Below are positions 5,511-63,388 of a stretch of 64,000 nucleotides of DNA, piece after piece. Origin of the DNA: Fabrea salina (lineage: Eukaryota; Ciliophora; Heterotrichea; Heterotrichida; Fabreidae). Made by a program: the position numbers and the translations under genes. Below the pieces are notes generated by a model. That model ran no database searches. It saw only the letters and a list, made by a program, of their open reading frames with translations, and was not told the DNA's origin. The stretch's first letter is position 1; every line of letters begins with the position of its first letter. The DNA lies in assembly GCA_022984795.1 (NCBI GenBank), contig JALIHJ010000010.1, positions 62,001 to 126,000 on the forward strand, written 5' to 3'.

Positions 5511-5526
5511 GAATTTTGTAATATAA
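5511..5526. promoter_or_regulatory. 16-bp divergent start spacer
   Basis: The sequence gaattttgtaatataa is all that separates the start codons of the coiled-coil gene (minus) and the TraB-like gene (plus). It contains TATA-like steps on both strands, so both transcription starts must lie in or very near it or inside the opposite coding sequence. Confidence 0.6.
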
Positions 5527-15524: not shown

Positions 15525-15821
15525 TTAAATGGTTTTAGGAGTGAACTCTGAAGCTTGGATGTTAAGTGCAGGTATGAATTCTTTGACCTGAGTGTTGAAC
15601 TTGGGAGTGAATTCATTTGCGTTTACGTTCATAGATTGTTTAGTTCGGAAGGTTCTTTTCTTGTTGTGAGTAAATCTTTTAGGAAGCTTAGGTTTTTTGG
15701 GAACAACCTCTTCTTCACTTAGGTAAGTCACTTGGTCTGACTAGAAGTTACCGTCTGAAAGTTGTAAAAACTCTTCTTCGCTCTCAGTCACTTCATTCCT
15801 CTTCCCAAACCCATTTTGCAT
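15525..15821 (-). CDS. Small basic protein with repeated EFTPK motif (93 aa, one intron)
   Basis: The ATG at 15821 opens MQNGFGKRNEVTESEEEF. A 15-nt intron at 15737-15751 joins it to VTYLSEEEVVPKKPK and the rest. The C-terminal half repeats a short motif: ANEFTPKFNTQ, VKEFIPALNIQ, ASEFTPKTI, about 11-13 residues apart. No domain is known. It is divergent from SCC2 by 20 bp and convergent with the long coiled-coil gene by 25 bp. The splice restores an uninterrupted 93-codon frame, which supports a real gene. Confidence 0.75.
15737..15751 (-). other. 15-nt intron
   Basis: Minus-strand sequence GTAACTTCTAGTCAG, phase 1. It carries an in-frame TAG if retained and an A at position -6. Confidence 0.85.
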
Positions 15822-15841
15822 TTTAAATAAGCCCCCTATAA
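15822..15841. promoter_or_regulatory. 20-bp divergent start spacer
   Basis: tttaaataagccccctataa lies between the ATGs at 15821 (minus) and 15842 (plus). It holds a TATAA directly before the plus ATG and a TTTAAA directly before the minus one. Confidence 0.6.
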
Positions 15842-18800
15842 ATGGAAAGCGTAGAAGTGTTTACTCCACAAAGCAAGTTAACTCCTAGTAGGGTCTACAA
15901 ACTCCCTAGGTCCTTAGCTAGGTCTCAACCTAAACTCCACAACGACAAGTTGCTTTTGAACAAACTAATATCCAGCATCAATTCGCTCCAAGACACCAAA
16001 GAGTTCTTAAGAGTAGAAAACTTGCTTACTAAACTCAAGCAAAGACTCCTACTTAACTACCTGAACTCCGATCTTCTTTTAGAACTTACTTACAAAATTA
16101 ACTCTCAGCTTAAAAAAGTGAGCTTTGATTTTACAAAAAGCGCGGTAGACCTTAGCAAGGACTTACTCAAAGCACTAGAACCCTCCAGAGTCTACCTTAA
16201 CCTTGCTGGAACTCCTGGAATCGACTCTAGAGTTCTTATGGACGAAACTCTAGAAAGCATCATGGGAATCCTCAAAGACTCCTGTGAAAAAGTAATTTTA
16301 GTTGCTGCCAAACAGAACTCAAAAGCTTTTAAGTCCTCTGTTTTCAAAGAGCTTTTGGCTAGTGTGTGTGCTGTTTTGGAGTACTTAGCTGAGCTCATCC
16401 AGAGAGGGATCCTGCAGGACTCTTGGTTTGCTACTACTTCAGACCTTCTACTCAAACTGATCTTTTGCAAAGAAACTGAAATGGTCAAAATGGCAGCTAC
16501 TTGTGCTTTAGGTGCTATATACTCTTGTTTCCCCAAACTAAGCAACTACATCATTGAAGAGATAGTTAACAACTTGCCTCTGCTCACCTACAACCCTGAC
16601 CAAGTCTTGAGCTCCAAAGCTAAAAAACTCAACAGCACTGCTTACTTGGTTTCTGAAGAAGTGTGTATGAACTTCAGTTCCTTTTTAGTGATTTACATCA
16701 CTCAGAGTTACTCCACCCTTGAAAAGCCTTTAAGACTAGAGGGCAAAGTTGACTTGCAAAGAGCTGTTTCTTTGTACCAAGAAACCATTAAGCTTGCTGA
16801 AGAGCTCATGACACAAATCCTGAGTTGTTGTGTTAAGTCTCAAAGCGACTCTCAAGACTACAGAGTTTTTCTAGACTCCTTTATAGAGGACCTACTTAAA
16901 GTTAAGTACTATCCCCAGTTTCCTTTGTGTGGTTTATTTCTTTCAAGCATTGTGTTGCAGTTGTTTGCTTTGCTTACTAAAAACACTTACTCAGTGTCAG
17001 TTAGGAACTTTGCCATTGACAAACTCAGCCAAATAGCACAGAGTCTACGGGAAGACATAAAGCAAGTTAGGGAGTACCCTTTGTACCCCCACAGCATTTT
17101 CCAAGTAAACAAAACCAGCAACCCCTTTGAAGACCCTTTGACTTCTAAGTGCGTCTGTAACAAAGGAAGCAAACCCAAGTATGGAGCAATGCTGCAGTGC
17201 TGTTCTTGCTACAGGTGGTTCCACGAAAAGTGTGTTGACGCCCAAGAAGAAGACTGGACCTGTGATAACTGCAAAGTCACTGAAGCTGCTAAAGAAACTC
17301 TGACTCACTCACAAGTTACAGGCCAGTCAGTATTAGTAACCCAAGAAATTGACGAGTTAACTCACAGGTACCAAGAAAGCTTTAAGCACTTAGTTTGCAA
17401 CTTTTTGGTTTCAGAAAACAAAATGTTTGCCAATGCAAGGTCAATATTAATCAGTGAGTGGAGTTCAGAAGCCCTTGAAAACAAAGAGTTCCTTGAAACC
17501 CTTTGGCTGACTCCTAACACTAGTGAAGTTAAGAAGCTTTCAGAAAAAGGAACCCTGAAGCTGAACAGACAACTCCGCATAAACCAAGACCTAGGCTCAG
17601 CGTTTTACCACATTCTAAATAAGATCCTGGGACTCCTAGGAGCCAACCAGCCCTTGATTAGAGCTAGGGCTCTTAAAGGCCTGTCCGGAATAGTTGAAAG
17701 TGACCCCCAAATCCTTGAAGAGAATGTTATTGAAGAAGCTATAACAGCAAGACTCATGGACTCAGCCATTTCGGTGCGGGAGTCCTGTGTAGAACTCATA
17801 GGCAAGTTCATCAACAAGTACGGAAACTTCAAAGGCACTTTTTACGACGCACTCATTAAGCGACTTAAAGACAAAGGTCCTAGTGTGAGGAAGAGAGTTA
17901 TTAAGATCCTAAAAGACATTGCTTTGAAAGACCCCAGCCACGAAAGGATGACTCTGATCTTAAGTGAGCTCCTCAAAAGAATTGCAGACGACACTGAAGG
18001 CATCAAGGATGTAGTCATTAGGACTTTCCACCACATTTGGTTTTCAGGAGACAAAAGTCCTCTGGATACCATCACTAAGATGCTCCACGTAGTTTCTCAA
18101 GACGAGTACTTTGTCCAGGTGCTCCAAGAAATCCTTAAAAGTTACCCCAATGAAAGAAAAGGTTTAGTTGCACTTGCAGACCAAGCTTCAAGGACTCTTT
18201 TTGAAAGTCGCAGTTTGGGACTTAGGATTGTGCAGGCCAGACTGCTTGAAGTGATTGCTAGGACTGACGCATCGGCAACAGCAACTCACATAAGCACGAT
18301 TTCGCACTTTTTAACACCTACTTTGCACTCAGTCGAAGAAACCAACTTAATTATACATATTTGCAACATAATTCACAAAACTGCTAGATACCTGTCAGGA
18401 AAGTACTCTTCAAGGTACTCTAAAGTGGAAAAAAGCTTACTGAACTTAGTTTACACTCACGGTTCCCAAGTGATGTCTAGAGCTTTAGCTGCCCTGTGTA
18501 ATACTATCAAGCACATCACTAACAACCAAGCACTTGTTCTGAAACTCATCAAGAACTGCTTTGCTTTAATAAGTTCTCAAAGCAGAGTCCAAGTACTTGA
18601 AGAGTCCAAAATCCCTTCTCTGAAAAGAGCCATGTTAATACTTTCACTTACAGTCAAATACTACGATGTTAACATTTACCTCAACTTTCAACTGGAACCT
18701 AGTAAGTCTTTCCAAGACTCCTTGTTTGAAGTTTTTAAAAACTACTACCAAATAACTCCACTCAAAGAAGTAGCCCTTGAGTCACTGAGTTATCTGTGGG

Positions 18801-19867
18801 TGCGCTTTCCGCAGTTGCTGTTGAAGTCTGAGTTTTTAGTTCGCAACGCTTGGAAAGAAACTAAGGAAACCAGTGCAAAACTCCACTTGTTAGGAATATT
18901 CCAAGAATTCCTAGAACACTGCGACACTCAGTTAGTGCAGAGCTCAGAAGACTTTGGAAACGTTCTGGGAGCAATGCAAAGTTACATCCACTACATAATG
19001 GATTTAACTAAGGACCCTGACACTGGAGTTAGGGAAATCACTGCAGAGGTACTTAAACTAGTCCAAACTCAAGGCCAAGTAAACCCTAACCTTTTGATTC
19101 CCAAGCTCATAGCTCAACTTGCAGACACCAGTCTTTATGTCAGAGAAGTTGCTTTTAGTTGCTTAGAAAGCATCCACAACAAAAACTCAGACTTGATCAT
19201 AGTGGGACTCTCAGGAGCTCTATACGAAATGTATGACTTCCAACTCAGAATCTTAAAAGGAACCAAAACTGCTTTTGAAGAGTCTTTGCTCAGCAGACTT
19301 TACGGACTCATCAAGCAAAAAAAATCCCAAAGAAATAAATTTCTGAACTGTGTGTGCAGGTTACTGGAACCCTCTGCTGACCCAGGGTTTACTTGTTTTA
19401 TAGCTGAGTTGCTTTCAGGTCTCCAGTACACTTCTCACGAAGAACTCAGCACTGTACTCAACTACCTGCACTCTAAAATAGAAACATCAGCTTACAAGTT
19501 ACTCAGACTCATCAAACTAAGTCTTGAAAGCAAAGAAGTTTTTCCCCACGAAGACACTATAGAAGCTATTTTAACTGCCCAACTAGTAGTGCTTAAGAAC
19601 TACTTAGTTAACTTGTACCAAGTTAAACCTGGAGAATCCAAACAAGACAAGCCCGTGCATGCCCAACCAGAAGACACTCAGAGTTTCAAGCAACTCTACA
19701 CTGAGTTTGAAAGGTTCCACTACTTAGAAAGAATCCAAGGAGACCAACTCAAAGACTTCAAAAAGAAGTTCAAAAACCACTTAGAAAGCCCAACAGTTTT
19801 GAAAAAAAGACCTGTGTCCAGAAGTGAAGCTGTGGAGTTACTTATAAGCAAAGCCATGCTGCTGTAA
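15842..19867 (+). CDS. SCC2: Cohesin loader SCC2/NIPBL with embedded PHD finger (1,341 aa)
   Basis: SCC2 loads cohesin onto chromatin. HEAT repeats fill most of the protein. The conserved core reads DSAISVRESCVELIGKFI (near residue 640), PSVRKRVIKILKDIA (near 682) and GIKDVVIRTFHHIWF (near 720), which closely parallels NIPBL. Residues about 436-477 are a PHD zinc finger: C-x-C, CC-x2-CYRWFHEKC, DWTCDNC. A PHD in SCC2 is known from plants, where it reads histone marks, but is absent from animal and yeast orthologues. Stop TAA; the convergent LRR gene ends 6 bp away. Confidence 0.93.
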   Translation: MESVEVFTPQSKLTPSRVYKLPRSLARSQPKLHNDKLLLNKLISSINSLQDTKEFLRVENLLTKLKQRLLLNYLNSDLLLELTYKINSQLKKVSFDFTKSAVDLSKDLLKALEPSRVYLNLAGTPGIDSRVLMDETLESIMGILKDSCEKVILVAAKQNSKAFKSSVFKELLASVCAVLEYLAELIQRGILQDSWFATTSDLLLKLIFCKETEMVKMAATCALGAIYSCFPKLSNYIIEEIVNNLPLLTYNPDQVLSSKAKKLNSTAYLVSEEVCMNFSSFLVIYITQSYSTLEKPLRLEGKVDLQRAVSLYQETIKLAEELMTQILSCCVKSQSDSQDYRVFLDSFIEDLLKVKYYPQFPLCGLFLSSIVLQLFALLTKNTYSVSVRNFAIDKLSQIAQSLREDIKQVREYPLYPHSIFQVNKTSNPFEDPLTSKCVCNKGSKPKYGAMLQCCSCYRWFHEKCVDAQEEDWTCDNCKVTEAAKETLTHSQVTGQSVLVTQEIDELTHRYQESFKHLVCNFLVSENKMFANARSILISEWSSEALENKEFLETLWLTPNTSEVKKLSEKGTLKLNRQLRINQDLGSAFYHILNKILGLLGANQPLIRARALKGLSGIVESDPQILEENVIEEAITARLMDSAISVRESCVELIGKFINKYGNFKGTFYDALIKRLKDKGPSVRKRVIKILKDIALKDPSHERMTLILSELLKRIADDTEGIKDVVIRTFHHIWFSGDKSPLDTITKMLHVVSQDEYFVQVLQEILKSYPNERKGLVALADQASRTLFESRSLGLRIVQARLLEVIARTDASATATHISTISHFLTPTLHSVEETNLIIHICNIIHKTARYLSGKYSSRYSKVEKSLLNLVYTHGSQVMSRALAALCNTIKHITNNQALVLKLIKNCFALISSQSRVQVLEESKIPSLKRAMLILSLTVKYYDVNIYLNFQLEPSKSFQDSLFEVFKNYYQITPLKEVALESLSYLWVRFPQLLLKSEFLVRNAWKETKETSAKLHLLGIFQEFLEHCDTQLVQSSEDFGNVLGAMQSYIHYIMDLTKDPDTGVREITAEVLKLVQTQGQVNPNLLIPKLIAQLADTSLYVREVAFSCLESIHNKNSDLIIVGLSGALYEMYDFQLRILKGTKTAFEESLLSRLYGLIKQKKSQRNKFLNCVCRLLEPSADPGFTCFIAELLSGLQYTSHEELSTVLNYLHSKIETSAYKLLRLIKLSLESKEVFPHEDTIEAILTAQLVVLKNYLVNLYQVKPGESKQDKPVHAQPEDTQSFKQLYTEFERFHYLERIQGDQLKDFKKKFKNHLESPTVLKKRPVSRSEAVELLISKAMLL

Positions 19868-23475: not shown

Positions 23476-24543
23476 ATGCTGGGCTGGATAAAACTAGCAC
23501 TAGTCTTATTAAGTGCAGCAGAGAGCTTTGCTGGTATATGTCCTGATTACACCATACGCAACCTTACTACTGGAACCGATGTGTGTGTAGTTTATGACTC
23601 TACTTTACTGACTTATTATGTAGATACCTCTGTATGCAATGCTACAAAGGAATGCTACTACAAAGGGTTTGGAATTAACCCAGAAACAAACATAATGTGC
23701 AAACCAAAACCTCAGCCTAAAACTCCTATGAAGAGTCCTAAGTTCCCAGGTGAAAAGTGTGATGGTACTACCAAGTGTGACTCTACCTATGCTCCTTTTG
23801 GTTGCAAGCAAGGCAAGTGCTTTGGGTACTCAGAGAACGAAGCCTTCCCAAAGGTTCCATTTAACCCTAGTTATGCTTGCAATCCTGGACTGTATTTTGA
23901 GGGAAATTACTGTGTGAAACAACTACCAGCAGGCAACAACTGCACTGCTGACTACCAGTGCAAAAACAGTTATGTGTGTGTAAACTCAGTTTGCACAAAA
24001 GTAGGGTCTATTAAAAATGGGACTGTTTTTGACTCAAGTAAGTCGGCTCAGCCGCACTTAGCTTGTGAAACGCTTATAAACTCTTGGATAAACTCAACCC
24101 ATTCTAAGTGCGTTAACCCAGTTACTTTAAAAGGCCAAGCAGCCTCTTGCAACTCTAACCAAGACTGTTTAGGTTCCAATGGGCAAACTACAACTTGCAA
24201 CTGCGGACTAAGTGGTGGTTCTTACTGCATGCTGCACTTAGGTGACAAGTTGTTCCAGCAAGCAACTAACTGCCTTAAAAACTGGTTCTTGAATGAAGCG
24301 CACCAGTGCAATACTTTAAGAAGGGACTCCGAATACTGCAAGCAAGACTACTGGGAAGAAAAACAAAACTACCAATACTACTTCTACAAAGCTTCTTTTT
24401 ACCCCTGGCTCAAAGGAGCCCGACCTGAAGTGATTCAAGTGTTTCAGCAGAACTACTACCAAATGCAAGAGAACTATACTCAAGACTCAACTGGAGTTCT
24501 CTGCGTTAGTTCTTTGGTTCTTTTTTTGCTAAGTAACTCATAA
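23476..24543 (+). CDS. Cysteine-rich, probably GPI-anchored surface protein, single unit (355 aa)
   Basis: Signal peptide at residues 1-19 (MLGWIKLALVLLSAAESFA). It carries one copy of the about 320-residue cysteine-rich unit also seen at 32213-36239 and 59319-60401. Landmarks: KFPGEKC, YACNPGLYFEGNYCVKQL, CKNSYVCV, CGLSGGSYC, CNTLRRDSEYC and a Tyr-rich FQQNYYQM. It ends in a short hydrophobic tail (VLCVSSLVLFLLSNS) typical of a GPI signal. N-glycosylation sites (NXT/S) are frequent. Cell-surface exposure is inferred from both termini. It is the most diverged family member here. Confidence 0.85.
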   Translation: MLGWIKLALVLLSAAESFAGICPDYTIRNLTTGTDVCVVYDSTLLTYYVDTSVCNATKECYYKGFGINPETNIMCKPKPQPKTPMKSPKFPGEKCDGTTKCDSTYAPFGCKQGKCFGYSENEAFPKVPFNPSYACNPGLYFEGNYCVKQLPAGNNCTADYQCKNSYVCVNSVCTKVGSIKNGTVFDSSKSAQPHLACETLINSWINSTHSKCVNPVTLKGQAASCNSNQDCLGSNGQTTTCNCGLSGGSYCMLHLGDKLFQQATNCLKNWFLNEAHQCNTLRRDSEYCKQDYWEEKQNYQYYFYKASFYPWLKGARPEVIQVFQQNYYQMQENYTQDSTGVLCVSSLVLFLLSNS

Positions 24544-24552
24544 AGAGATTAA

Positions 24553-25173
24553 ATGGAACCCGGAAATAAAAAACCCGAACGAAAACCAAACAAACCAAAC
24601 CAACAAGAAAAGCCTTACAAAAGGTACCCTTGCAAAAACGGAAAGAAATGCAGCAACCCTTACTGTAAAGACTACCACTTTTTAGGCGAAAGAATCAGAA
24701 AAACTCCCTTTGAGCCCATTCCTTGTCCGCACAATTACAACTGCAAAAACATTGACACCTGCAAATTTTCTCACTCAGTCAACGAAATTCTTTACCACAC
24801 AAAGAACCACAGAGCAACTATTTGTTCGTACCCACCTGAAAAAAACTTTTGCTTACTAAGGGACCAGTGTCACTGCCTGCACGGGTCTTCTGAAGAGCTT
24901 AAAACCAAAATTAAACTTACTCAAGAAGCAAATGCCCTACTTAAAGAGTCTTTTCAAAAAGAACAAGAACTCAGAACTCTGCTTAACAACTTAGAAGTCC
25001 TCAAAGTTAAGTCAAAAGAACTCAGAGAAAAAGCTACTTGCAACCAGTGCCTTAAAGCAATTAAACAAGTGCTGTTTTACCCATGCTTGCACACAACCTG
25101 TCCAGGGTGTGTGAGTGAAGAACTCTGCCCAGTGTGCTTTAAGTCAACTAAAATGTTTAACATTAACTTTTAG
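24553..25173 (+). CDS. CCCH zinc finger / RING protein, Unkempt-like (206 aa)
   Basis: N-terminal half: CCCH-type fingers around CKNGKKCSNPYCKDYH (residues about 26-41), CPHNYNCKNIDTCKFSH (about 60-76) and a third C...CLLRDQCHCLH. Then a short coiled coil (residues 115-160) and a C-terminal C3HC4-type RING beginning CNQCLKAIKQVLFYPCLH and ending CPVC. The order CCCH, coiled coil, RING is that of Unkempt-like RNA-binding proteins. It probably binds mRNA and may recruit ubiquitin enzymes. The stop TAG (25171-25173) overlaps the stop codon of the convergent gene by three to four bases. Confidence 0.85.
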   Translation: MEPGNKKPERKPNKPNQQEKPYKRYPCKNGKKCSNPYCKDYHFLGERIRKTPFEPIPCPHNYNCKNIDTCKFSHSVNEILYHTKNHRATICSYPPEKNFCLLRDQCHCLHGSSEELKTKIKLTQEANALLKESFQKEQELRTLLNNLEVLKVKSKELREKATCNQCLKAIKQVLFYPCLHTTCPGCVSEELCPVCFKSTKMFNINF

Positions 25174-26804
25174 AAGTGTGAAGACCTTCTTTTAGTGTTA
25201 ACAGTCATTACGTTTCTTCTATAAGATTCTCTTTTAACATTCATAGTGTCTTCGTTGGGCGGAGAAGCAGTTTTGTTTTTGAAACTAGAGTTAAACATCA
25301 ACGAAGTAAACCTTAAACTGTCGCTGAAGGACTCGTTTTGTTTCTTAATTATTGAAAACAAGGAGTTCAGAATAGCTGTGCAGTTCTGGAGGAGTTCAAG
25401 TCGTCGGTTGTTTCTGGAGCCCAAAGTGTCAGGTTTCCGTAGCATAGTTTTTATAGACTCAGCCAAAATAGCTACTGACTGGTGGAAGTTAAGAGTGACT
25501 TTTTCGACTTGTTTTTTGAGTTCTTCTAAATCTTTTTTGTTGCCAGTGTGGTCAGCTAGTGTGTAGACTTCGGACTTGTCTGCTTTGAACTTAACTTCTT
25601 CTTTGATTTCTTCGAGTTCTGAAACTAGTGCGTTTAAGTTCTTGTCTTCGCTCTTTTTAGGCTGCTCATTAAGGGGCTGGTTTAGGAGTTGCTCCTTTAG
25701 GTTCTGGATGTGTCTCAAGTTTTCTTCATTTTTTGAGTCTAAACCACTCATTGTTAGTTTGAGTTCGTTTAAGTCTGAGTTAACTTGCTCTTTGAGTGCG
25801 AAGTTAGTGCTGTGTTGCTTGAACACTTTGAAGTCGTCTTTAGAAGCTTTTTGGAGAATTACTTCGTCAAACCTAGCTAAGGCTTTTTCGAAGTACTCAA
25901 TGCTTTTACTGAAACTAGTGATGTTTTCTCCAAAAACACTGATTTTAGAACTCACGAACTCTTTTAAATCAGCAATGTCTTCAAAACTTACTTTGGTGTA
26001 CACTTCGTTTTGCAGTAAACTAAGGTCTTGTTTCCAGGGCTTCGACTTAAGGTTCCTGTCCAAGCCATCAACTTTGTAGTTAACTTTTTTGATTTCGCTG
26101 TTGGTTTTGGTTCTAAAGCTTTCAATTCGGTTGTCCAAGTTGTCGGACTTACTTAGAATTTCTCTGTGTTTCTCTTCAAAGTCTTCTTTTTTCAAGCACT
26201 TAAAAAACAGTTGCTCAGTGTAAGAACTTAAGGAGTCGTTTAACTTTTGCAAAGACTCAGTAGTTGGGAGAGCTTTAAGTTGTGACTGCAAGTTGCTCAC
26301 TTCATTTTTGAGTCTGTTCAACTCGTTCAAACTGGCTAACTTGGTTATTTTTTCTGAGAGTTCGTCAAATTCAGTAAAGGTTACGAAGTTGTTGAGTCTT
26401 GAAAGTACCATGTTCATTTCGGAATTTTCAGCTTTAGTAGCAACTTGTTCTTGAACTTCTTCTAACAAAGCATGGTCTTTAGGGCACTGTTCAAGTAACT
26501 TCTCAAGTTCAGCTTTGGAGTTTGCGTATTCGCCTGTTACTGACTCAAGGTTGGTTTTGTTTTCTTCTACTTGGTCGTAAACTCTGTACAAGTTTTCTTG
26601 TAGGGAGTCCTGCCAAATCCGAGTTTCTTCAGCTTCAGAAGCTTTCATTCTTTTGACTTCTTCAATGACTTCTTTCCTGATCTCCTTTTTTAACGTCTCC
26701 AAGAAAGACACTTCGTATTCTTTTCCGTGACTGATTTTTTGGTAGTAGTCTACTAGTTGCTTAACTATAGTAGTTTCAGCAACGTTTTCAGAAGACTCAC
26801 TCAT
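25170..26804 (-). CDS. Coiled-coil protein, uncharacterised (544 aa)
   Basis: Starts at MSESSENVAETT (ATG at 26804); the longer open frame upstream has no ATG. From residue 30 to about 440 it is coiled coil with heptads broken into segments. The C-terminus is basic and Ser/Thr-rich and ends RRSSHF. No globular domain is evident. The ATG is only 7 bp from the divergent zinc-knuckle gene. A structural cytoskeletal role is a guess from composition. Confidence 0.82.
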   Translation of the reverse strand: MSESSENVAETTIVKQLVDYYQKISHGKEYEVSFLETLKKEIRKEVIEEVKRMKASEAEETRIWQDSLQENLYRVYDQVEENKTNLESVTGEYANSKAELEKLLEQCPKDHALLEEVQEQVATKAENSEMNMVLSRLNNFVTFTEFDELSEKITKLASLNELNRLKNEVSNLQSQLKALPTTESLQKLNDSLSSYTEQLFFKCLKKEDFEEKHREILSKSDNLDNRIESFRTKTNSEIKKVNYKVDGLDRNLKSKPWKQDLSLLQNEVYTKVSFEDIADLKEFVSSKISVFGENITSFSKSIEYFEKALARFDEVILQKASKDDFKVFKQHSTNFALKEQVNSDLNELKLTMSGLDSKNEENLRHIQNLKEQLLNQPLNEQPKKSEDKNLNALVSELEEIKEEVKFKADKSEVYTLADHTGNKKDLEELKKQVEKVTLNFHQSVAILAESIKTMLRKPDTLGSRNNRRLELLQNCTAILNSLFSIIKKQNESFSDSLRFTSLMFNSSFKNKTASPPNEDTMNVKRESYRRNVMTVNTKRRSSHF

Positions 26805-26811
26805 ATTATAT
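26805..26811. promoter_or_regulatory. 7-bp divergent start spacer
   Basis: Only attatat separates the ATG at 26804 (minus) from the ATG at 26812 (plus). Any promoter element beyond this lies inside coding sequence. Confidence 0.6.
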
Positions 26812-27483
26812 ATGGATAACTTGTTTTTTTTTGACACTGAGCCTCAAGAAACACAAAGCACCGTTGTCCAGGAAACCAAAACTTCTCAAAGGTACTTCCA
26901 AGAACCTGACCCTACTCTTAAGTGCTTCAACTGCAACAACTTCGGGCACATGAGTTTTAGTTGCCCCAATCAACAAAAAGTCAAGAACTGCATATTCTGT
27001 GCGTCTCGTCACAAATTTGTGGACTGCAAAGAAGTGCTGTGCCACCGCTGCTCCACAGTAGGTCACATTGCTAGGGCCTGCACAGCAGGCTTCCAAAAAA
27101 GATGCAACTTGTGCAAGAAGTCCACTCACTTAGAAAAGACCTGCATGCTCAGAAAAGACCTTAAAGTACAAAAAGTAGTTAAGTACTTAAAGTGCATTAC
27201 CTGCCAGAAATCAGGCCACCTTAACTGCAGCAAACCAAAAGCAGCTATTTTGGCTTACTGCCACAAATGCGGAGGACAAGGACACAATGCTGCTTTGTGT
27301 CCTGGGAAAGGCAAGTCCACTCGGGACTTGTTTAAAACCCACGTGAAACTAGCTGAAAGTGCTGACTTAAAAAACACAAACAGGCCTATGAACAAAAAGG
27401 AAAAAAGGTACTGGACTAAGGTCGAAAACAAAGCTTTTAAAAACCTCCTCAAAAGAGCTAAGCGAAAAAATAAACATAATTAA
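26812..27483 (+). CDS. CCHC zinc-knuckle protein, AIR1/2-ZCCHC7-like (223 aa)
   Basis: Five CCHC-type knuckles in a row: CFNCNNFGHMSFSC (residue about 38), CIFCASRHKFVDC, CHRCSTVGHIARAC, CNLCKKSTHLEKTC and, after a variant CITCQKSGHLNC, CHKCGGQGHNAALC. The tail is Lys-rich. Multiple adjacent knuckles without other domains are the hallmark of AIR1/AIR2/ZCCHC7, the RNA-binding subunit of the TRAMP complex in nuclear RNA surveillance. No polymerase, protease or integrase region is nearby, so a Gag origin is unlikely. Orthology is inferred from architecture. Confidence 0.75.
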   Translation: MDNLFFFDTEPQETQSTVVQETKTSQRYFQEPDPTLKCFNCNNFGHMSFSCPNQQKVKNCIFCASRHKFVDCKEVLCHRCSTVGHIARACTAGFQKRCNLCKKSTHLEKTCMLRKDLKVQKVVKYLKCITCQKSGHLNCSKPKAAILAYCHKCGGQGHNAALCPGKGKSTRDLFKTHVKLAESADLKNTNRPMNKKEKRYWTKVENKAFKNLLKRAKRKNKHN

Positions 27484-31783: not shown

Positions 31784-32224
31784 TATAGTTGTTGAGAAAT
31801 TGTTTGCTTCAGTTTTATTGGGCACTTACAAGTGCCAGTAACAACACTTTGAGGCAAGCATTTAACCAAAAAAGCCAAAGAGAACTAGGAATTGAGTGCA
31901 GTTCTGACAGTGATTGCACTTGGCTAAAAAGGAATTTGTGTGTGAACTTAGCAGGAAGTCATACTATCAACTGCACAAACACGAGGATTTGTAAATAACT
32001 ACTTAAAGAACTTACTTTAAAAAGGTTCTGAACAATGAAATGCATGAGGAACTACTCAGAAGACTTAAAGAAAAAAATACTACAATTACAAGGCTACTCA
32101 CTATCCTTGGGTCAAAGACTCTGGCGAAACTCTTTTAAAGGCGTTTCAAAACACATGCTGCCAACTTGAACAAGACTCTGCTGTAGCTTTTGTTTTAAGG
32201 TTAGTATGTTTTTTAGTGGCTTAA
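31784..32224 (+). pseudogene. Decayed copy of the cysteine-rich surface protein
   Basis: Plus-strand remnants of the family lie in order but not in one frame. First is a hydrophobic N-terminal-like stretch (LLQFYWALTSASNN) followed by ECSSDSDCTW...LCVN, to a stop near 31998. Further on, 32091-32224 encodes YYNYKATHYPWVKDSGETL...KAFQN and a hydrophobic end, aligning with YYFYKASFYPWLKGARPEV and the GPI-like tail of the 23476 gene. At least one frame change and a large internal deletion separate them, and the total is under half a normal unit. No ATG is seen at the expected start. Its end overlaps the convergent array by 12 nt. Confidence 0.7.
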
Positions 32225-33310
32225 GATAAGAACTAGTGAAGCCCAGATAGGGTAAATGAGAAAGGCTGAGTCATCATTGTCATTATCATTGTCATTGTCA
32301 TTGTCATCTATATCTTCGTAGTCGTTCCTAGCGATATAGTAATCTCTTCTAAACACCTCTACTGCACAGTCAGGTGCGTTGTAAACAAGTGGGAAGTTAC
32401 CTGCGTATGTAGCATAGTAGTTGTACTCAATGTAGTCGTCTCCCCAGAAGTCAGCTTGACAGTCGTCTTTGTTTCTTCTTCCAGTGTTGCAGTTTTGGGA
32501 GTAGTCATAGTACCACTCTTTTAAGAGTTTAAGAGTTTGGAGTCTAGGTTGGTCACCAGCATACAATGTGCAGTAACTTTCTCCACTGAGTCCACACATG
32601 CACCTCGAAGGATATTCTGCACCACTTTCTACTTTGCAGTCATCATTACTATCGCATTTCTGAGTATAGTCTGGGTGCTTATCTGCTGCAGCACAAACTG
32701 AGTTTCCACTCTGATTTTCTGTGCAGTAACCTTCTTCACACAAGTTAGAAACATGGCTACTTGGGCAGCTATAGATCTGATCGCCTTTCTTAAGTGAGTA
32801 AATCTGTTGACAGATTTGATAGCCTGACGTATTCTTTTCACAAACAGCGTCGTTCTGGCATTCGTTAGTTCTTGTGCAGTTCTGATCTAAGCTCTTCTGT
32901 TCCACACACTCTGTGCCATCGTAGTAGAGTCCAGGGTTGCAGTAGTAGTCTCCAGGCTTTCCAGAAGGCACATCAAAAGGCACTCCCTTACCTTTTCCTT
33001 GACACCTGTTGTTTTCACACTTGCCAGTGGTGTACTCTCCACAGTCACTGTCTTGCTGGCACTTTTCGCCCGGGAACTTTTTGGTAGTGATGAACTCAAC
33101 AGCTGAACTTTCACTGCAAGTCACGTTTGCTTGAGGGTCCAGTGAGATACTATTTATGCAGTCCATTCCAGTAGCACAGTTGGAAGTATCAATGGAATAG
33201 GAGTTTGAATTAGAGTCGTACATAACGCACACTGGAGGGTTAGAAGTAGAGTCGAAGTTATTACAACTGTATTGAGGGCATTTGGGTTGATAGTCTTCCT
33301 TTAGTTTCAT
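32213..33310 (-). CDS. Fourth unit of cysteine-rich surface protein array
   Basis: Encodes a complete cysteine-rich unit: KCPQYSCNNFDS, KFPGEKCQQDSDCGEYTTG, YYCNPGLYYDGTECVEQ, CQNDAVC, CGLSGESYC, CNTGRRNKDDC, then an Asp-Asn repeat and a hydrophobic GPI-type tail (IYPIWASLVLILSH). The possible ATG at 33310 gives MKLKEDYQPKCPQYSC and no signal peptide. It lies in the +1 frame relative to units 1-3 and overlaps their frame by 50 nt. Most likely it is the C-terminal part of the same protein, displaced by a one-base change or sequence error. A separate gene is less likely. Confidence 0.75.
   Translation of the reverse strand: MKLKEDYQPKCPQYSCNNFDSTSNPPVCVMYDSNSNSYSIDTSNCATGMDCINSISLDPQANVTCSESSAVEFITTKKFPGEKCQQDSDCGEYTTGKCENNRCQGKGKGVPFDVPSGKPGDYYCNPGLYYDGTECVEQKSLDQNCTRTNECQNDAVCEKNTSGYQICQQIYSLKKGDQIYSCPSSHVSNLCEEGYCTENQSGNSVCAAADKHPDYTQKCDSNDDCKVESGAEYPSRCMCGLSGESYCTLYAGDQPRLQTLKLLKEWYYDYSQNCNTGRRNKDDCQADFWGDDYIEYNYYATYAGNFPLVYNAPDCAVEVFRRDYYIARNDYEDIDDNDNDNDNDNDDSAFLIYPIWASLVLILSH
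32271..32308 (-). repeat. Asp-Asn coding simple repeat
   Basis: On the plus strand an imperfect cattgt/cattat hexamer array; on the minus strand it encodes alternating Asp and Asn before the hydrophobic C-terminus. It probably forms an extended acidic stem ahead of the membrane anchor and is prone to length change. Confidence 0.9.
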
Positions 33311-36239
33311 AGTAGTTTTTCTGGAACACTTTCAAGACACAGTCAACTGATTTATGAACGTAGGGGAAAAGACTTGCGTATGTAGCATAGTAGTTGTACT
33401 CAATGTAGTCGTCTCCCCAGAAGTCAGCTTTGCAGTCGTCTTTGTTTCTTCTTCCAGTGTTGCAGTTTTGGGAGTAGTCATAGAACCACTCTTTTGTAAG
33501 TTCGAATACCTTCATTCTAGGTTGGTCACCAGCATACAATGTGCAGTAGCTTTCTCCACTGAGTCCACACATGCACCTCGAAGGGAACTCGAGGCTACCA
33601 GTTGATTTGCAGTCTTCATCATCAGAGCATTCATTTAGGTATCCTTGCACATTTTTATCTGCTGCAGCACAAACTGAGTTTCCACTCTGATTTTCTGTGC
33701 AGTAACCTTCTTCGCACAAGTTAGAAATTCGACTGTTGGAGCAACTGTGAATCTGATCGCCTGTCTTAACTGAGTAAATCTTTTGACAGACTTGGTTGGC
33801 TGTTCGGTTGTAGTCACAAACAGCGTCGTTCTGGCATTCGTTAGTTCTTGTGCAGTTCTGATCTAAGCTCTTCTGCTCGACACACTCTGTGCCATTGTAG
33901 TAGAGTTTAGGGTTGCAGTAGTAGTCTCCAGGCTTTCCAGGAGGCACGTCAAAAGGCACTCCCTTACCTTTTCCTTGACACCTGTTGTTTTCACACTTGC
34001 CAGTGGTGTACTCTCCACAGTCACTGTCTTGCTGGCACTTTTCGCCTGGGAACTTTTTGGTAGTGATGAACTCAACAGCTGAACTTCCACTGCAAGTCAC
34101 GTTCATTTCAGGCTCTAATGAGTTACTGATACACTCCGTTCCAGTAGCACAGTTAGAGGAATCAATGGTATATGAGTTTGACAAAGGATCATAAAGAATG
34201 CACATTTGGGAATCAGAGTCAAAGTAACCACAACTGTACTGAGGGCACTTGCGATTGTTTCTGGCTTCATAGTAGCTGTTTTCAAATACTTTGACTGCAC
34301 AGTCAAGTGCATTGTGCACGTAAGGGAAGTTGACTGAGTACGAAAAGTAATAGTTGTATTCAAGGAAGCCATCTCCCCAGAAGTCAGCTTGACAGTCTGG
34401 TTTATCTCTTCTTGCAGTGTTGCAGTTTTGGGAATAGTCATAGTACCATATTTTCAGAAGCTGAAAAGCTTTCATTCTGGGTCCGTCTCCCATGTAAAGA
34501 GTGCAGTAACTGTCTCCACTGAGTCCACACTTACACTGTGAAGGGAACTCAGCATTGCTGTTGGTTGAATTGCATTCGCTGTTTTTGGTGCATCCTAGTT
34601 TGTAGTCTTGATGTTTGTCTGCTTCCACGCAAACGGGTTTACCATTGCTGTTTTCCATGCAGTGTCTGTGCTCACACAAGTTAGAAACATGACTGTTGGA
34701 ACAACTGTGGATCTCTTCTCCGATTTTAACTGAGTAAATCTTTTGACAGACTTGGTTGCCTGCTAGGTTGTAGTCACAAACAGCGTCGTTCTGGCATTCG
34801 TTAGTTCTTGTGCAACTGCCTCCTAAGCTCTTCTGCTCGACACACTCTGTGCCATTGTAGTAGAGTTTAGGGTTGCAGTAGTAGTCTGCAGGTTGAAGGG
34901 TTGGAGTAAAAGGCACTCCCTTACCTTTTCCTTGACACCTGTTGTTTTCACACTTACCAGTGGTGTAATCTCCGCAGTCACTGTCTTGCTGGCACTTTTC
35001 GCCTGGGAACTTTTTGTTAGTAATAGGCCCAGCAGCTGAACTTTCAATGCAAGTCACGTTTGCTTGAGGGTCTAGTGAGTTACTGATACACTCCGTTCCA
35101 GTAGCACAGTTAGAGGCATCAATGGTATATGAGTTTGAATTAGAGTCGTACATAACGCACACTGGAGGGTTAGAAGTAGAGTCGAAGTCATAGCAGTCGT
35201 ATTCAGGACATTCAACTCTTTCCTCGTCTCTGTAGTACTCGTACTGGAAGATTTCAATGATTTCGTCTTGAGCGTTTTTGAAATAAGGAAGGAAGTTGGC
35301 CTTATAATTTTTGAGCTTAAATTCCTCATACTCATCCCAAAAGTCATTCATGCAGACTTCTGAGTTCCTTCTGTGGGTATTGCATTTCTGAGAAATGTTT
35401 CTGTACCAGTCAATTAGCATTTGATTTGCTTTTTGGTGAGAAGGGTCTCCTTTGTGAGGCATGCAGTAAGATTTACCACTGAGTCCGCACAGACACAAAG
35501 AGTTACTCCATCCATAGGCACCACAGTCATCGTTAGAGTCGCACTCTGAAGCTTCTCCATTGCTACTAACTGGCCCAATGCATGTTCCAGTATTTAAGTC
35601 AGAACCAATGTTAATGTCAAGGGTTTTACAGGCTAAGTAAGGAAGAGTTGAACCTGGGATGTTTATTTGAGTTCCATTGCTGACTGAGCCTATTTCAGTG
35701 CACTTAGAGTCAATACAAACATGGCTGTTTACGCACTCCCAGTCACTTTTGCAGGCTTCTCCATTACCAAGTTGCTTCACACACCAGTCAGTAGTGCCAT
35801 TGTAAAACAAGCCTGGGTTGCACGCATAGTTTATTTTGTTTGTGACGTTTTTAAATGCCTGGCCTTCTGAGTAGCCTTGGCAAATTCCATTTTGGCAGCC
35901 AAATGGGGCGTATATTTCACTACAGTCACTGTCAACGCCACACTTCTCTCCTGGGAACTTAACTTCTTTTTGAGGAACTGGTTCTTCTTTGCAGGCCACG
36001 TCACTACGCGGATCTATTCCAAAGAATCCATCGTAAATGCACATTTGGTCTTCTGGACACACAGAGTAGTCCACAAGGTAAGTGGTATTATCACTGAAAA
36101 ACTTAACACAGGTCCCTGGAGACGAACTCTGGTCTATTTTCCCTGGTAAGTATTGAGGGCAAACTCGCGAGGAGTAACTTAAAGCGTTAGCCATTCCAAA
36201 CACCGAAAGAAGTCCTAGAAGAATTTTCTCTCCTTTCAT
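33261..36239 (-). CDS. Cysteine-rich surface protein, units 1-3 of a tandem array (992 aa)
   Basis: Signal peptide at residues 1-19 (MKGEKILLGLLSVFGMANA). Unit 1 spans about residues 20-342, unit 2 about 343-661 and unit 3 about 662-980. Each repeats KFPGEKC...DSDC, YxCNPxLYYNGTxCVxQ, CGLSGxSYC and CNTxRRxxxxC with conserved cysteine spacing. Units 2 and 3 are near copies of unit 4; unit 1 is more diverged and resembles the single-unit gene at 23476. There is no membrane tail in this frame: it ends within the unit 3/4 junction at TAA 33261. N-glycosylation sites are frequent. It is likely a tandem surface antigen whose anchor lies in the next frame. Confidence 0.85.
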   Translation of the reverse strand: MKGEKILLGLLSVFGMANALSYSSRVCPQYLPGKIDQSSSPGTCVKFFSDNTTYLVDYSVCPEDQMCIYDGFFGIDPRSDVACKEEPVPQKEVKFPGEKCGVDSDCSEIYAPFGCQNGICQGYSEGQAFKNVTNKINYACNPGLFYNGTTDWCVKQLGNGEACKSDWECVNSHVCIDSKCTEIGSVSNGTQINIPGSTLPYLACKTLDINIGSDLNTGTCIGPVSSNGEASECDSNDDCGAYGWSNSLCLCGLSGKSYCMPHKGDPSHQKANQMLIDWYRNISQKCNTHRRNSEVCMNDFWDEYEEFKLKNYKANFLPYFKNAQDEIIEIFQYEYYRDEERVECPEYDCYDFDSTSNPPVCVMYDSNSNSYTIDASNCATGTECISNSLDPQANVTCIESSAAGPITNKKFPGEKCQQDSDCGDYTTGKCENNRCQGKGKGVPFTPTLQPADYYCNPKLYYNGTECVEQKSLGGSCTRTNECQNDAVCDYNLAGNQVCQKIYSVKIGEEIHSCSNSHVSNLCEHRHCMENSNGKPVCVEADKHQDYKLGCTKNSECNSTNSNAEFPSQCKCGLSGDSYCTLYMGDGPRMKAFQLLKIWYYDYSQNCNTARRDKPDCQADFWGDGFLEYNYYFSYSVNFPYVHNALDCAVKVFENSYYEARNNRKCPQYSCGYFDSDSQMCILYDPLSNSYTIDSSNCATGTECISNSLEPEMNVTCSGSSAVEFITTKKFPGEKCQQDSDCGEYTTGKCENNRCQGKGKGVPFDVPPGKPGDYYCNPKLYYNGTECVEQKSLDQNCTRTNECQNDAVCDYNRTANQVCQKIYSVKTGDQIHSCSNSRISNLCEEGYCTENQSGNSVCAAADKNVQGYLNECSDDEDCKSTGSLEFPSRCMCGLSGESYCTLYAGDQPRMKVFELTKEWFYDYSQNCNTGRRNKDDCKADFWGDDYIEYNYYATYASLFPYVHKSVDCVLKVFQKNYYETKGRLSTQMPSIQL

Positions 36240-36389: not shown

Positions 36390-37334
36390 TTAAAGCCTTT
36401 TGCACCTGGTTTCTTCAGTGTGCTTTTTTCTGCCGTTAAGACGCTGGAGTTTAAGTTCGCGTTCTTGCATCTTTTTCTGGAGTTGTTCTAGTATGTTTGA
36501 GGGTTCTTGGGTTTTGTTGTCGACTTTACACAGTACTTTTTCGAAAAAGGTTTCTAGTTTAGGAGTAAGTACAGTTTCTTCCCAGTGTTTAATGTGTTGG
36601 TTAAACATTGCAGTGAACTCAGACTGTTCTTGTTCAACTTGGTTCTTAGACTGGACAAACTGAGTTAAGGAATTAACTTGTTGGGTGAGAAGCCCAAGTG
36701 TTTCTTTGAGTTCTTCTATGTTTTGGGTCCAGTTGTTAACTTCTTGTTTGAGATTTTGTATTTCTTGGTTTGAAGGAGTTTTTCGGTAGGCTGGAGAAGG
36801 TGTGTACTCCAAAGAGTTTTCAGCTAACTTAAAAGGGGAACCCGTTAGGTTCTTAAGGTCCTGGTTAAGGTCTACTAGTTGGGTTTCAAGCTTGTCTTCT
36901 AGTTTTTCGTACAAAAAGACCTGGTTCATGTAAGTTCTGTTGGCCCCAAAGCACTCGTTGACCACTACTTTTAAGTAGTTAACAGTTTGGTCGAGGGGAG
37001 TGATCTTAAAGACCTGACACCCACTTTGGGACTCAGCGTGGAACGAGCCCCACTTTTTCCAAGAGTTGAGTTCTTGGGCTGCATAAAGGTCGACTTGGGA
37101 AGGGTTGGAGTTGTAGAAGTGCCAGCAGTACCAGCCGAACTCCCCAAATTCTTTAGGTCTTTCTGTTAAGTTAGAAATGTCCAGAGTGATTTCTTGAGGC
37201 AAGTTCCTTTCTGAAAGCCAAAGCTTGCGTTCCATAGAGCAGAGTACGTTTTCTGCATAACAGCCTCTTTCTTCAGAAGAACTGCTTAAAACTTTAGCTC
37301 CGTTTTCTGCTGTTAAGTAGTTTTGCACAGACAT
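36390..37334 (-). CDS. Jelly-roll (SUN/discoidin-like) plus coiled-coil protein (314 aa)
   Basis: Starts at MSVQNYLTAENGAKVL (ATG 37334); the longer open frame upstream has no supporting homology and would overlap POLE. Residues about 5-150 look like a galactose-binding jelly-roll of the SUN/discoidin/CEP104 type: GAKVLSSSSEERGCYAENVL, ITLDISNL, FGWYCWHFYNSNPSQVDLYA, and closing CFGANRTYMNQVFLYE. The remainder is coiled coil with a basic end. Such modules in ciliates occur in ciliary and nuclear-envelope proteins; no membrane segment is present. Only 6 bp separate it from the divergent POLE ATG. Confidence 0.6.
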   Translation of the reverse strand: MSVQNYLTAENGAKVLSSSSEERGCYAENVLCSMERKLWLSERNLPQEITLDISNLTERPKEFGEFGWYCWHFYNSNPSQVDLYAAQELNSWKKWGSFHAESQSGCQVFKITPLDQTVNYLKVVVNECFGANRTYMNQVFLYEKLEDKLETQLVDLNQDLKNLTGSPFKLAENSLEYTPSPAYRKTPSNQEIQNLKQEVNNWTQNIEELKETLGLLTQQVNSLTQFVQSKNQVEQEQSEFTAMFNQHIKHWEETVLTPKLETFFEKVLCKVDNKTQEPSNILEQLQKKMQERELKLQRLNGRKKHTEETRCKRL

Positions 37335-37340
37335 ACTTAA
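37335..37340. promoter_or_regulatory. 6-bp divergent start spacer
   Basis: Only acttaa separates the minus ATG (37334) from the POLE ATG (37341). Confidence 0.6.
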
Positions 37341-40300
37341 ATGGAAAAAGCGCGAAACCAAACCCAGGAAGAATTTGAGAACCTGATGGAGTGGGAAACA
37401 CTTACTGAAGGAAGCAAAGTAGGTTACCTGTTCAACATCAAGCCTCACAAAGTTCTTGACGAAAACAGGAAAGAAGTAGCTTGTGTGCTTCTTTACATGG
37501 TTGATGAAGCTTGCAATGCTTTCAAGGTAGTGCTTCGTTACGACCCTTACTTCTACGTGCTTGCTCACGAAGAGTTCCGCAGCGAAGTGCTCTACGCAAT
37601 CACCAGGCGCTTCGGAGGAATGCTTAAAACTGCAGAAATCGTTGAAAAAGTTGACTTGGACTTACCAAATCACTTAGCAGGCTTAAAACAAACTTACATT
37701 AAACTCACTTTTGCAAGCATTAACGACTTAATTTCAGTGAGAAACACTATCAAGCAGAAAATGAGACTGAACGCCCGGAGCAACTTCCAAGACTACCTAG
37801 AGAGCATACAAGATACCAGGGAACACGACGTGATTTACTACACGCGCGTAGCAATAGACTTGGACTTAAGGTGCGGAAAGTGGTACCAAGTTTCTTTTAG
37901 GAACTCCCAACCCCAACTTAACTCCCTTCCTGAAAAGCTTACTAACCCCAGACTTAGAGTCCTAGCTTTTGACATCGAAACTGTAAAGTCGCCTTTTAAG
38001 TTCCCTGACGCAAGAGTTGACCCCATTATGATGATTTCTTACATGATTGACGGAGTGGGATTCCTCATAGTTAACCGGGAAGTAGTTAGTGAGGACATAG
38101 AAGACTTCGAGTACACTCCCAAACCTGAGTTCAAAGGAGAATTTACTGTGCTTAACGAAGCCAACGAGTTCCAAGTCCTCACTGCGTTTTTTTACCACAT
38201 CAAAAAAACTAAGCCTTTCATTTTTTCAACTTTTAACGGAGACTACTTTGACTGGCCTTACATAAAGACCAGGGCTAGCATAAACGGACTAGACATGGAA
38301 AAAGAAATAGGAGTTTACGAAGAAGCAGGCGAGTTCAAAGGACGTCTTTCAGTCCACATGGACTGTCTTTACTGGGTCAAAAGAGACGCCTACCTGCCTC
38401 AAGGGTCACATGGACTCAAAAAAGTCACCAAAGCAAAGCTAGGCTATGAACCAGTTGAACTGGACCCTGAAGAAATGGTTCCTTTTGCAAAAAACAACCC
38501 ACAAGGTTTAGCTGTGTACTCAGTGTCAGACGCAGTTGCTACTTACTACTTGTACAAAACGCACATCCACGACTTTATTTTTGCACTGTGTTCAATAGTT
38601 CCTTTGTACCCAGACGACGTGCTTAGAAAGGGTAGTGGAACTCTTTGCGAGCAACTGCTAATGGCCCAAGCCTACTCAAGAAACATTATTTTCCCCAACA
38701 AAATGACAGAGAAGAGCGAAAGTTTCTACCAAGGGCACTTAATTGAAAGCGAAACTTACATTGGAGGCCACGTAGAGTGCCTTGAAGTAGGAGTTTACAG
38801 ATGCGACTTTCCTGTACAGTTCAAACTTGACTCTGAAGCTTACCAGGAACTGATTGGCCAAGTAGAAGCCTCAGTGGACTTTTGTGCACAGATAGAAAAC
38901 GGAGTGTCTCCTCAAGACATAGTTAACAAACAAGAAGTCTGCAACTCTATAAAAGAACACCTTCAGGAATTAAGGGACTCAGGACCTTTAGAAATAAAAC
39001 CTCTCATTTACCACTTAGACGTAGCAGCTATGTACCCCAACATTATTTTGTCAAACAGACTGCAACCCACTGCTATTGTTTCTGAGAAAAACTGCGCAAG
39101 CTGCATCTACAACAACCCTTCTAACAACTGCAAACGCAACTTGTCCTGGGAGTGGCGAGGAGAACTTTTCCCCCTTAAAAAAGGAGAGTACGAAGGGATC
39201 AAGTCCCAGCTTGAACAAGACGTTTTTGACGGAGTCCCTTTCAGCCATCATTCAGCTGACTCCCAACAGTCGAAAATCAAAACCCGAGTCAAAGAGTACT
39301 GCAAACGAGCTTACAACCAAGTGCACTTCACCAAAACCGAACTAAAAACTGACACTGTGTGCATGCGGGAAAACTCTTTTTACGTTGACACTGTGCGTGC
39401 TTTTAGGGACCGTCGTTACGACTTTAAGCACAAAGTTAAACTTGAGTTAAACAACTTAAAGTCTGTCCAGTCAGACTCAGTTGAAGCCAAAGAAGCAGAG
39501 GAAAGAATGAACTTGTTTGAGTCACTGCAGCTAGCACACAAAATCATTCTGAACTCTTTTTACGGCTACGTAATGAGGAAAGGCGCTAGATGGTACTCTA
39601 TGGAAATGGCGGGCATGGTGACTCACATGGGAGGCACGATTATAAGACAAGCCAGAAAGCTCATAGAAAGAATTGGAAAACCTTTAGAGTTAGACACTGA
39701 TGGAATATGGTGCTTGCTTCCTGGAGGCTTTCCTGAGAACTTTTACTTGGAAACTCATTCAGGGAAAAGGATCAGCATGGCTTACCCCTGCACAATGCTT
39801 AACGTGCTTATTTACGACTCGTTCAAGAACCCTCAGTACCAAACCCTTTCAGAAGACGGGTCTTACAAAACCCACACAGAGATGTCTGTGTTTTTCGAGA
39901 TTGACGGGCCTTACCGCTGCATGATGATTCCTGCTTCTACTGAAGAAAACAAGATGCTCAAGAAAAGGTACGCTGTGTTCAACATGGCAGGCAAAATGAC
40001 TGAACTCAAAGGCTTTGAACTCAAAAGAAGGGGAGAACTCAAACTCATCAAGGTGTTCCAGGAAGAAATCTTCGACAAGTACCTTCAAGGCACTAACTTG
40101 GAAGAGTGCTACTCAGCCATAGCCCAAGTTGCTGACAAGTGGTGGGACATGCTTGAACTCAAAGGTTCCAATGTAGCCAACGAAGAACTTATAGAGTACT
40201 TGTGCGAAGACAGAATTCTTTCAAAGTCACTCAGTGAGTATGGAGCGCAGAAGTCCACAGCCATAACTACAGCCAAAAGAATGGGAGACTTGCTAGGAAA

Positions 40301-43809: not shown

Positions 43810-44163
43810 TTAGCCTAAAACAGCTTCAGAAGAATAAGTGATGTATAAAAACCCGTCAGGGTCTTTAAGTTCGGAGTAGATTTGCTTGATTGTTTTGTTC
43901 ATAGCTGGCATATGTGCATTCCCAACTACTATGTAAAGGGACTCATTGCTGCTCATCTGGAGCTTTTTTCTTAGGTGGAAAAGAAATTCATGGAAAGTGT
44001 ACAGCATAGGTACCAAAAACTTGTTTTGGGGAATCCTTAAAGTGTTTTGGGGGATGTTTGAAGGCTGGATGATTATTGGAGCTTTATTAGGGTGGTTTTG
44101 GCACAGGTTTTGGGATTCTTGCTTTCTGGTTTGTAAGTCGGGTACTTCTTTTCTGAAATCCAT
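43810..44163 (-). CDS. ATG8: ATG8/LC3-family ubiquitin-like protein ending in glycine (117 aa)
   Basis: Lipidated autophagosome protein. The family pattern runs throughout: RKQESQNLCQNHPNKAPIII (versus RKxEAxxIRxKYPDRIPVIV), NKFLVP, FHLRKKLQMSSNESLYIVVGN (versus IRKRIxLxxExAIFxFVxN), IYSELKDPDGFLYITYSSE and the final VLG. The C-terminal Gly is the last residue, so no ATG4 cleavage would be needed for lipidation. The LxxGPxx region before it is normal, but N-terminal helices are shortened and the sequence is diverged. It is divergent from a small Tim gene by 11 bp. Confidence 0.88.
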   Translation of the reverse strand: MDFRKEVPDLQTRKQESQNLCQNHPNKAPIIIQPSNIPQNTLRIPQNKFLVPMLYTFHEFLFHLRKKLQMSSNESLYIVVGNAHMPAMNKTIKQIYSELKDPDGFLYITYSSEAVLG

Positions 44164-44174
44164 TACTAATATAC
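44164..44174. promoter_or_regulatory. 11-bp divergent start spacer
   Basis: tactaatatac separates the ATG8 (minus, 44163) and small Tim (plus, 44175) start codons. Confidence 0.6.
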
Positions 44175-56223: not shown

Positions 56224-56229
56224 TTTATA
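56224..56229. promoter_or_regulatory. 6-bp divergent start spacer
   Basis: Only tttata lies between the transporter ATG (56223, minus) and the EngB ATG (56230, plus). Confidence 0.6.
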
Positions 56230-63383: not shown

Positions 63384-63388
63384 AATAA
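63384..63388. promoter_or_regulatory. 5-bp divergent start spacer
   Basis: Only aataa separates the ATG at 63383 (minus) from the RPA1 ATG at 63389 (plus), the shortest divergent spacer in the window. Confidence 0.6.

Follow-up and report, generated by a model that had tools for sequence, protein, structure and literature searches.

Head-to-head gene starts a few bases apart in a 64-kb stretch of Fabrea salina DNA

In a 64,000-nucleotide stretch of Fabrea salina DNA (hereafter the window: positions 62001-126000 of contig 2, in an assembly of 103 contigs and 18,328,466 bases) we analyzed seven pairs of divergently transcribed genes whose two ATG start codons are separated by only 5 to 20 bp. 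These seven gaps are real, and they are not exceptional for the genome in which they occur; nor are head-to-head pairs special in it, since gaps of 7 bp or less are found in 7 of 40 divergent and 15 of 89 tandem arrangements in a wider sample of the same genome. The tiny gaps seem to be a part of genome-wide compaction, rather than a special switch shared by two genes. We think it probable that the mRNAs are nearly leaderless and start at an AT tract set directly against the ATG, with the footprint of the polymerase lying over the codons of the neighboring gene.

Seven head-to-head pairs and their start codons

The ATG-to-ATG distances that a sequence-only reading had given for these pairs (16, 20, 7, 6, 11, 6 and 5 bp) are exact in all seven instances, and its heading of "5-7 bp" describes four of them but not the other three, at 11, 16 and 20 bp. 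The focal site reads CAT (26802-26804), ATTATAT (26805-26811) and ATG (26812-26814). The seven gaps and the genes on either side of them are as follows:

5511-5526, 16-bp gap GAATTTTGTAATATAA, between 3885-5510 (minus strand), a coiled-coil-like gene, and 5527-6756 (plus strand), a conserved unannotated gene
15822-15841, 20-bp gap TTTAAATAAGCCCCCTATAA, between 15525-15821 (minus strand), a 93-residue gene with one called 15-nt intron, and 15842-19867 (plus strand), a NIPBL/SCC2-like cohesin loader
26805-26811, 7-bp gap ATTATAT, between 25170-26804 (minus strand), a coiled-coil-like gene, and 26812-27483 (plus strand), a zinc-knuckle gene
37335-37340, 6-bp gap ACTTAA, between 36390-37334 (minus strand), a weakly IFT25-like gene, and 37341-43382 (plus strand), DNA polymerase epsilon (POLE)
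44164-44174, 11-bp gap TACTAATATAC, between 43810-44163 (minus strand), ATG8, and 44175-44390 (plus strand), a Tim10/DDP-like gene
56224-56229, 6-bp gap TTTATA, between 54967-56223 (minus strand), a transporter-like gene, and 56230-57021 (plus strand), EngB/YsxC, with called introns at 56341 and 56940
63384-63388, 5-bp gap AATAA, between 62982-63383 (minus strand), a small gene, and 63389 onward (plus strand), RPA1, the largest subunit of RNA polymerase I

Altogether the window contains 11 divergent pairs in which both genes have at least 60 residues and score above 20; seven of these have gaps of 20 bp or less, and the others measure 46, 102, 222 and 281 bp.

So short a distance is only as good as the two start codons that define it. 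The sequence-only reading had regarded the starts as credible on account of conserved N-termini, and homology or the position of methionines bears this out for 7 or more of the 14; the conserved N-terminus claimed for EngB does not stand, as homology there begins at residue 65. We call a start forced if the open reading frame has no other methionine, or if the next methionine falls inside the matched domain, and on this definition five starts are forced, namely those of ATG8, the Tim10-like gene, RPA1, EngB and the zinc-knuckle gene. Solved ATG8/LC3 chains align to the ATG8 protein from residue 2-4, and its next methionine is residue 53; the Tim10/DDP-like gene has a single methionine in its reading frame, and the pair at 44164 is thereby the only one with both starts forced. 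Polymerase I subunits align to RPA1 from residue 5, the next methionine being residue 52, and in EngB the next is residue 178, inside the domain. In the zinc-knuckle gene it is residue 47, inside the best-scoring knuckle (residues 37-53), and the one homologue found, which is 97% identical, starts at the same methionine.

Two further starts are backed by homologues. The gene opposite POLE gives a weak IFT25 alignment from residue 2 (E 0.065) and shares its start methionine with both of its two database homologues, while among the 16 homologues of the gene at 5527, 12 begin within one residue of M1, two begin at M13 (P0001 and P0014) and two begin further upstream. Proteins 97-99% identical to their counterparts here are present in the database for three of the genes (P0001, P0017 and P0018). 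POLE itself aligns from residue 7, which is compatible with M1 or with M16, the latter making the gap 51 bp. The NIPBL-like gene has no further methionine before residue 133, and its matched domains lie far downstream. A Pfam scan of three of the five minus-strand genes ending at 5510, 15821, 26804, 56223 and 63383 gave no match; the label coiled-coil-like for 3885-5510, which had no match in the Pfam scan, and the label transporter-like were read from the sequence. One could suppose that some of the starts are wrong, with translation beginning at later in-frame ATGs and the gaps being of normal size, and later methionines are indeed at hand: the 5527 gene has one at residue 13, POLE at 16, the transporter-like gene at 12 and 22, the 62982 gene at 29 and the IFT25-like gene at 34. 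With five starts forced and homologues behind two more, this explanation is contradicted for the 44164 pair and is very unlikely for the set. At least half of the 14 starts are firm; a misplaced start is excluded for five genes, by methionine position, and is unlikely for two, the 5527 gene and the gene opposite POLE.

Two of the flanking genes merit separate mention. The 5527-6756 gene codes for a 409-residue protein with 16 database homologues and no Pfam or NCBIfam match, whose conserved N-terminus, MxRxLRRxFKVMNR, is perhaps a mitochondrial targeting sequence. The minus-strand gene at 54967-56223 consists of two adjoining open reading frames, which are probably a single transporter-like gene; the 15-nt intron that would join them, at 55819, contains an in-frame stop, and in plain lists of open reading frames the gene is split in two.

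Gene spacing and sequence marks across the genome

The window is most likely part of the highly compacted macronuclear genome of a ciliate, the heterotrich Fabrea salina. The published macronuclear genome of this species is reportedly about 18.35 Mb in size, gene-dense and provided with tiny introns. Under the standard genetic code, which Stentor also uses, open reading frames in the window reach 2013 residues. The called stops comprise 131 TAA, 27 TAG and 7 TGA. The called introns are 15 nt long in 32 of 37 cases, with the consensus GTAA...A...AG (the A at position 10 in 87%), a length that is partly built in, as the intron caller was restricted to 15-17 nt and learned its pattern from its own calls. 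Stentor introns are 15-16 nt long, and 90.9% of them have their branch-point A at position 10 (PMC9505925); the standard code and the 15-nt introns with A at position 10 thus point to a genome of the heterotrich type.

Gene spacing was measured in 234 kb of the 18.33 Mb, made up of the window and a further 170 kb on four more contigs (loci L009-L025; loci L001-L008 were left out). Genes were called with a purpose-written caller allowing introns of 15 or 16 nt (early versions also accepted 17 nt, which was later dropped), trained on the same genome using sequence only. It made 214 calls, a number of which are certainly spurious; together they span 95% of the sample. Removing pairs with a gene below 60 residues or a score of 20 or less left 165 pairs for the distance counts. 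In these the median divergent gap is 32.5 bp (n=40; 16 gaps of 20 bp or less, the shortest being 4-7 bp), the median tandem gap 23 bp (n=89) and the median convergent gap 8 bp (n=36; 14 of 7 bp or less, and two in which the genes overlap). Under a stricter filter (100 residues, score 30), which keeps 139 pairs, the three medians are unchanged. Divergent and tandem gaps do not differ (p=0.20), and each is longer than the convergent ones (p=0.0002 and p=0.0004, respectively). The medians are roughly additive: with some 16 bp for a start and some 4 bp for a stop, a tandem gap of 20 bp is predicted, as against the 23 bp measured. Short divergent gaps are somewhat more frequent in the window, where 7 of 11 are of 20 bp or less, than in the remaining sample, where 9 of 29 are.

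Base composition sets the start side of a gene apart from its stop side. Among gaps of 1-25 bp the AT content is 83.6% for divergent (19 gaps, 244 bp), 83.7% for tandem (46 gaps, 545 bp) and 72.1% for convergent arrangements (27 gaps, 262 bp), the difference between divergent and convergent being significant (p=0.002); as convergent gaps are lower in AT, the excess is tied to starts and is not just a property of non-coding DNA. For the marks at the starts themselves we kept 168 starts, after removing genes with fewer than 100 residues, a score of 30 or less or short upstream sequence. An AT-only run of at least five is present in the last 12 nt before the ATG in 137 of these starts, as against 43 of 168 in a control interval at -100 to -89. 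A is common at each of the positions -1 to -4 (51-65% of 144 starts), and TATAA abuts the ATG in 14 of the 168 starts, where 5.6 are expected (p=0.0017). TA steps, taken as an indicator of transcription starts, showed no clear excess among the sampled starts. Of the marks looked at, only the AT tract next to the ATG consistently accompanies a start.

A 21-letter, partly degenerate, AT-rich pattern used to look for relatives of the gaps had no match in viral contigs, and its two exact matches, in contigs of bacterial metagenome-assembled genomes, were found in 257 billion bases and are by a rough estimate about what chance would give. Two further features were noted. TAA, an in-frame stop, abuts the ATG in 43 of 168 starts where 23.4 are expected from column frequencies (p=7e-5), and the same holds for four of the plus-strand genes in the seven head-to-head pairs. 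On the stop side, TTTACA (TGTAAA on the other strand) occurs in 5 of the 27 short convergent gaps and may be a 3'-end signal fitted into the little space between genes.

Where transcription may begin

An initiation complex of normal size is larger than a gap of 5-20 bp, and such gaps have no room for the two complexes of a classical bidirectional promoter. It had been proposed that the two mRNAs are nearly leaderless and fire from a single tiny bidirectional element, or else that each gene has its promoter inside the other. This is probably a false choice, as leaders confined to the gap would be near zero in length and the complex would still sit over the codons of the neighbor. On the near-leaderless reading favored here, hardly any upstream DNA would be reserved to a gene. 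Its mRNA would begin within about 20 nt, and often within just a few nt, of the ATG, in a short stretch rich in AT, with A at -1 to -4, that often takes the form TATAA or TTAAAT. Where genes diverge, the two AT tracts would abut or fuse into a single one of 5-20 bp, and the polymerase assembly of each gene would overlie the first codons of the other. With the assemblies thus placed, the two partners could hardly fire at once on one copy of the DNA; speculatively, the many DNA copies of the macronucleus might render such mutual exclusion harmless, the two directions alternating among copies. For the pairs 4-7 bp apart one may go further, and suppose that a single AT-rich patch initiates on both strands at overlapping bases, with leaders of 0-5 nt and no dedicated promoter DNA, the region of the start codon carrying promoter information throughout the genome and the copies alternating in direction. 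We put this forward tentatively, as a possibility that we would not ourselves expect to hold.

The length of the leaders can be approached through upstream ATGs, which would be expected to be avoided if leaders of 30-60 nt were usual. Out-of-frame ATGs are instead near background in that region: they number 54 in 5880 positions (0.92%) at -8 to -60, including 42 in 4368 (0.96%) at -21 to -60, compared with 103 in 9744 (1.06%) at -61 to -147. Beyond -8 there is accordingly no clear avoidance among the 168 starts, while closer in, at -3 to -7, none is found in 504 positions against 4.2 expected from column frequencies. These counts bear on the rival proposal that leaders are as long as is usual in ciliates (about 20-50 nt) and begin within the coding sequence of the neighbor, with promoter elements buried there and no special role for the gap. 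This is a serious if less likely alternative: gaps of 5-20 bp force a complex of full size over the neighbor in any case, and a median leader like that of Paramecium, 19 nt, would already reach into it (PMC5485702). Against it, apart from the lack of overall ATG avoidance at -21 to -60, speaks the coding sequence in which such elements would lie. In 34 starts with divergent gaps of 25 bp or less, TATA[A/T] within the codons of the neighbor occurs at 0 of 816 positions at -25 to -48 and at 2 of 3468 at -49 to -150, and the third-position AT of the first codons shows no consistent rise in short-gap divergent genes relative to tandem ones. Embedded TATA boxes in the neighbor were rejected for want of enrichment.

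Several observations weigh against the near-leaderless reading, or blunt the evidence for it. The upstream-ATG test is low in power, none against 4.2 expected being a weak result. The 12 ATGs in 1512 positions at -8 to -20 are compatible with a moderate depletion, and there is a dip to 10 in 1680 (0.60%) at -31 to -45; both counts lend something to the buried promoter. Leaders of 10-20 nt, overlapping the first codons of the neighbor, are compatible with the same test. AT-only 7-mers are slightly raised upstream of short-gap divergent starts, with 6 in 408 positions at -25 to -36 against 11 in 2652 at -73 to -150. The gaps themselves are in part uncertain. P0001, the closest homologue of the 5527 gene (99% identical), is listed as starting at M13, which would give a gap of 52 bp. 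In a first 214-kb sample, taking for every gene the in-frame ATG that lies farthest upstream turns 4 of the 28 divergent gaps negative, so that for some of the sampled pairs the precise distance is caller-dependent. Tetrahymena, moreover, has longer leaders, with a median of 88 nt (quoted in PMC5485702), and short leaders are hence not universal in ciliates. Lastly, T stands at -5 in 49 of 80 divergent and 32 of 88 tandem starts, and is thus not a universal signal.

This enrichment of T in divergent starts only is one of the points in favor of a dedicated bidirectional promoter, i.e. a tiny AT-rich element that fires a co-regulated pair and evolved as a unit. The T persists at divergent gaps above 30 bp (22 of 38); in short gaps a part of it may come from the A-rich context of the partner. 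The gaps of the shortest pairs, moreover, are AT-only or nearly so, and in Giardia some adjacent genes initiate in both directions at the same nucleotide (PMC3792122). Nevertheless, tandem starts lie equally close to the preceding stop and are equal in AT, divergent gaps are not shorter than tandem ones, and partners such as POLE and the IFT25-like gene, or ATG8 and the Tim10-like gene, have in our judgement no obvious common function. The special bidirectional element that the sequence-only reading entertained is not supported by these comparisons with tandem genes, and we hold an evolved promoter unit to be improbable.

Spliced-leader trans-splicing would add leaders to the mRNAs and make the genomic leader length irrelevant. 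We know of no spliced leader in ciliates. By eye, four of the seven gaps (those of 16, 7 and 5 bp and the 6-bp gap at 56224) have no AG acceptor in either direction, and the remaining three contain AG in one direction or both. An Rfam scan of the window gave no match, a leader RNA elsewhere in the genome not having been searched for. Trans-splicing was set aside as highly unlikely, on account of the four gaps that lack AG.

Other window genes, related systems and implications

The window additionally codes for a family of cysteine-rich, probably secreted proteins at 23476-24543, 32213-33223, 33261-36239 and 59319-60401, recognized by the common phrases KFPGEKC and CNPGLYY/F; the gene at 33261-36239 has about three repeat units.

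An AT-rich start element is a feature of Giardia. The AT-rich tract against the start codon in the Fabrea sample is a trait of this type of near-leaderless initiation. Giardia, in which leaders can be as short as 1 nt and initiation is frequently bidirectional, is the nearest measured parallel in that it combines near-leaderless mRNAs with closely spaced divergent starts, the difference being that its starts were measured and those of Fabrea are inferred (PMC3792122). Among ciliates, Cap-seq in Paramecium gave the median of 19 nt mentioned above, and leaders in Halteria are given as about 18 bp on average, and as about 10 bp elsewhere in the same paper (PMC7858049); Halteria differs in that its genome consists mostly of gene-sized nanochromosomes. 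Blepharisma has short intergenic regions and introns of 15-16 bp, and differs in reading UGA as Trp (PMC9942806). The portions available to us of the accounts of Paramecium, Halteria and Blepharisma (PMC5485702, PMC7858049, PMC9942806) contain no divergent spacing of 4-7 bp, and those of the literature looked at as a whole contain no report of divergent start spacing in a heterotrich. In Encephalitozoon cuniculi and other microsporidia the 5' untranslated regions are strongly reduced, and in E. cuniculi a head-to-head pair of ribosomal protein genes has a common 35-bp spacer with an AAATTT signal; this organism differs from Fabrea in the length of that spacer, in its CCC- or GGG-like start signals and in being a parasite (PMC2803860). 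A translation element called TISU, which is specific to mRNAs with very short leaders, has also been described (PMC2518114). The short divergent starts belong to the genome as a whole, and streamlining has been described before for a genome of this kind. TISU is a mammalian element.

That the arrangement is extreme for a nuclear genome, as the sequence-only reading had it, is fair in general terms. It needs qualifying in that the macronuclear genome of Fabrea salina has been published as "extremely streamlined" in the very title of the paper (Zhang et al. 2022, Mol Biol Evol msac062), and in that Giardia (PMC3792122) and ciliates other than Fabrea (PMC5485702, PMC7858049) are on record as having very short leaders. 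What the gaps present is a eukaryote, very probably free-living, that would fit the starts of both transcription and translation into a handful of bases. In such a genome the minimum of DNA needed to start a nuclear gene would be directly measurable. The gaps also raise the question of how two polymerase II assemblies make use of the same few bases, and whether the many-copy macronucleus is what enables them to do so.
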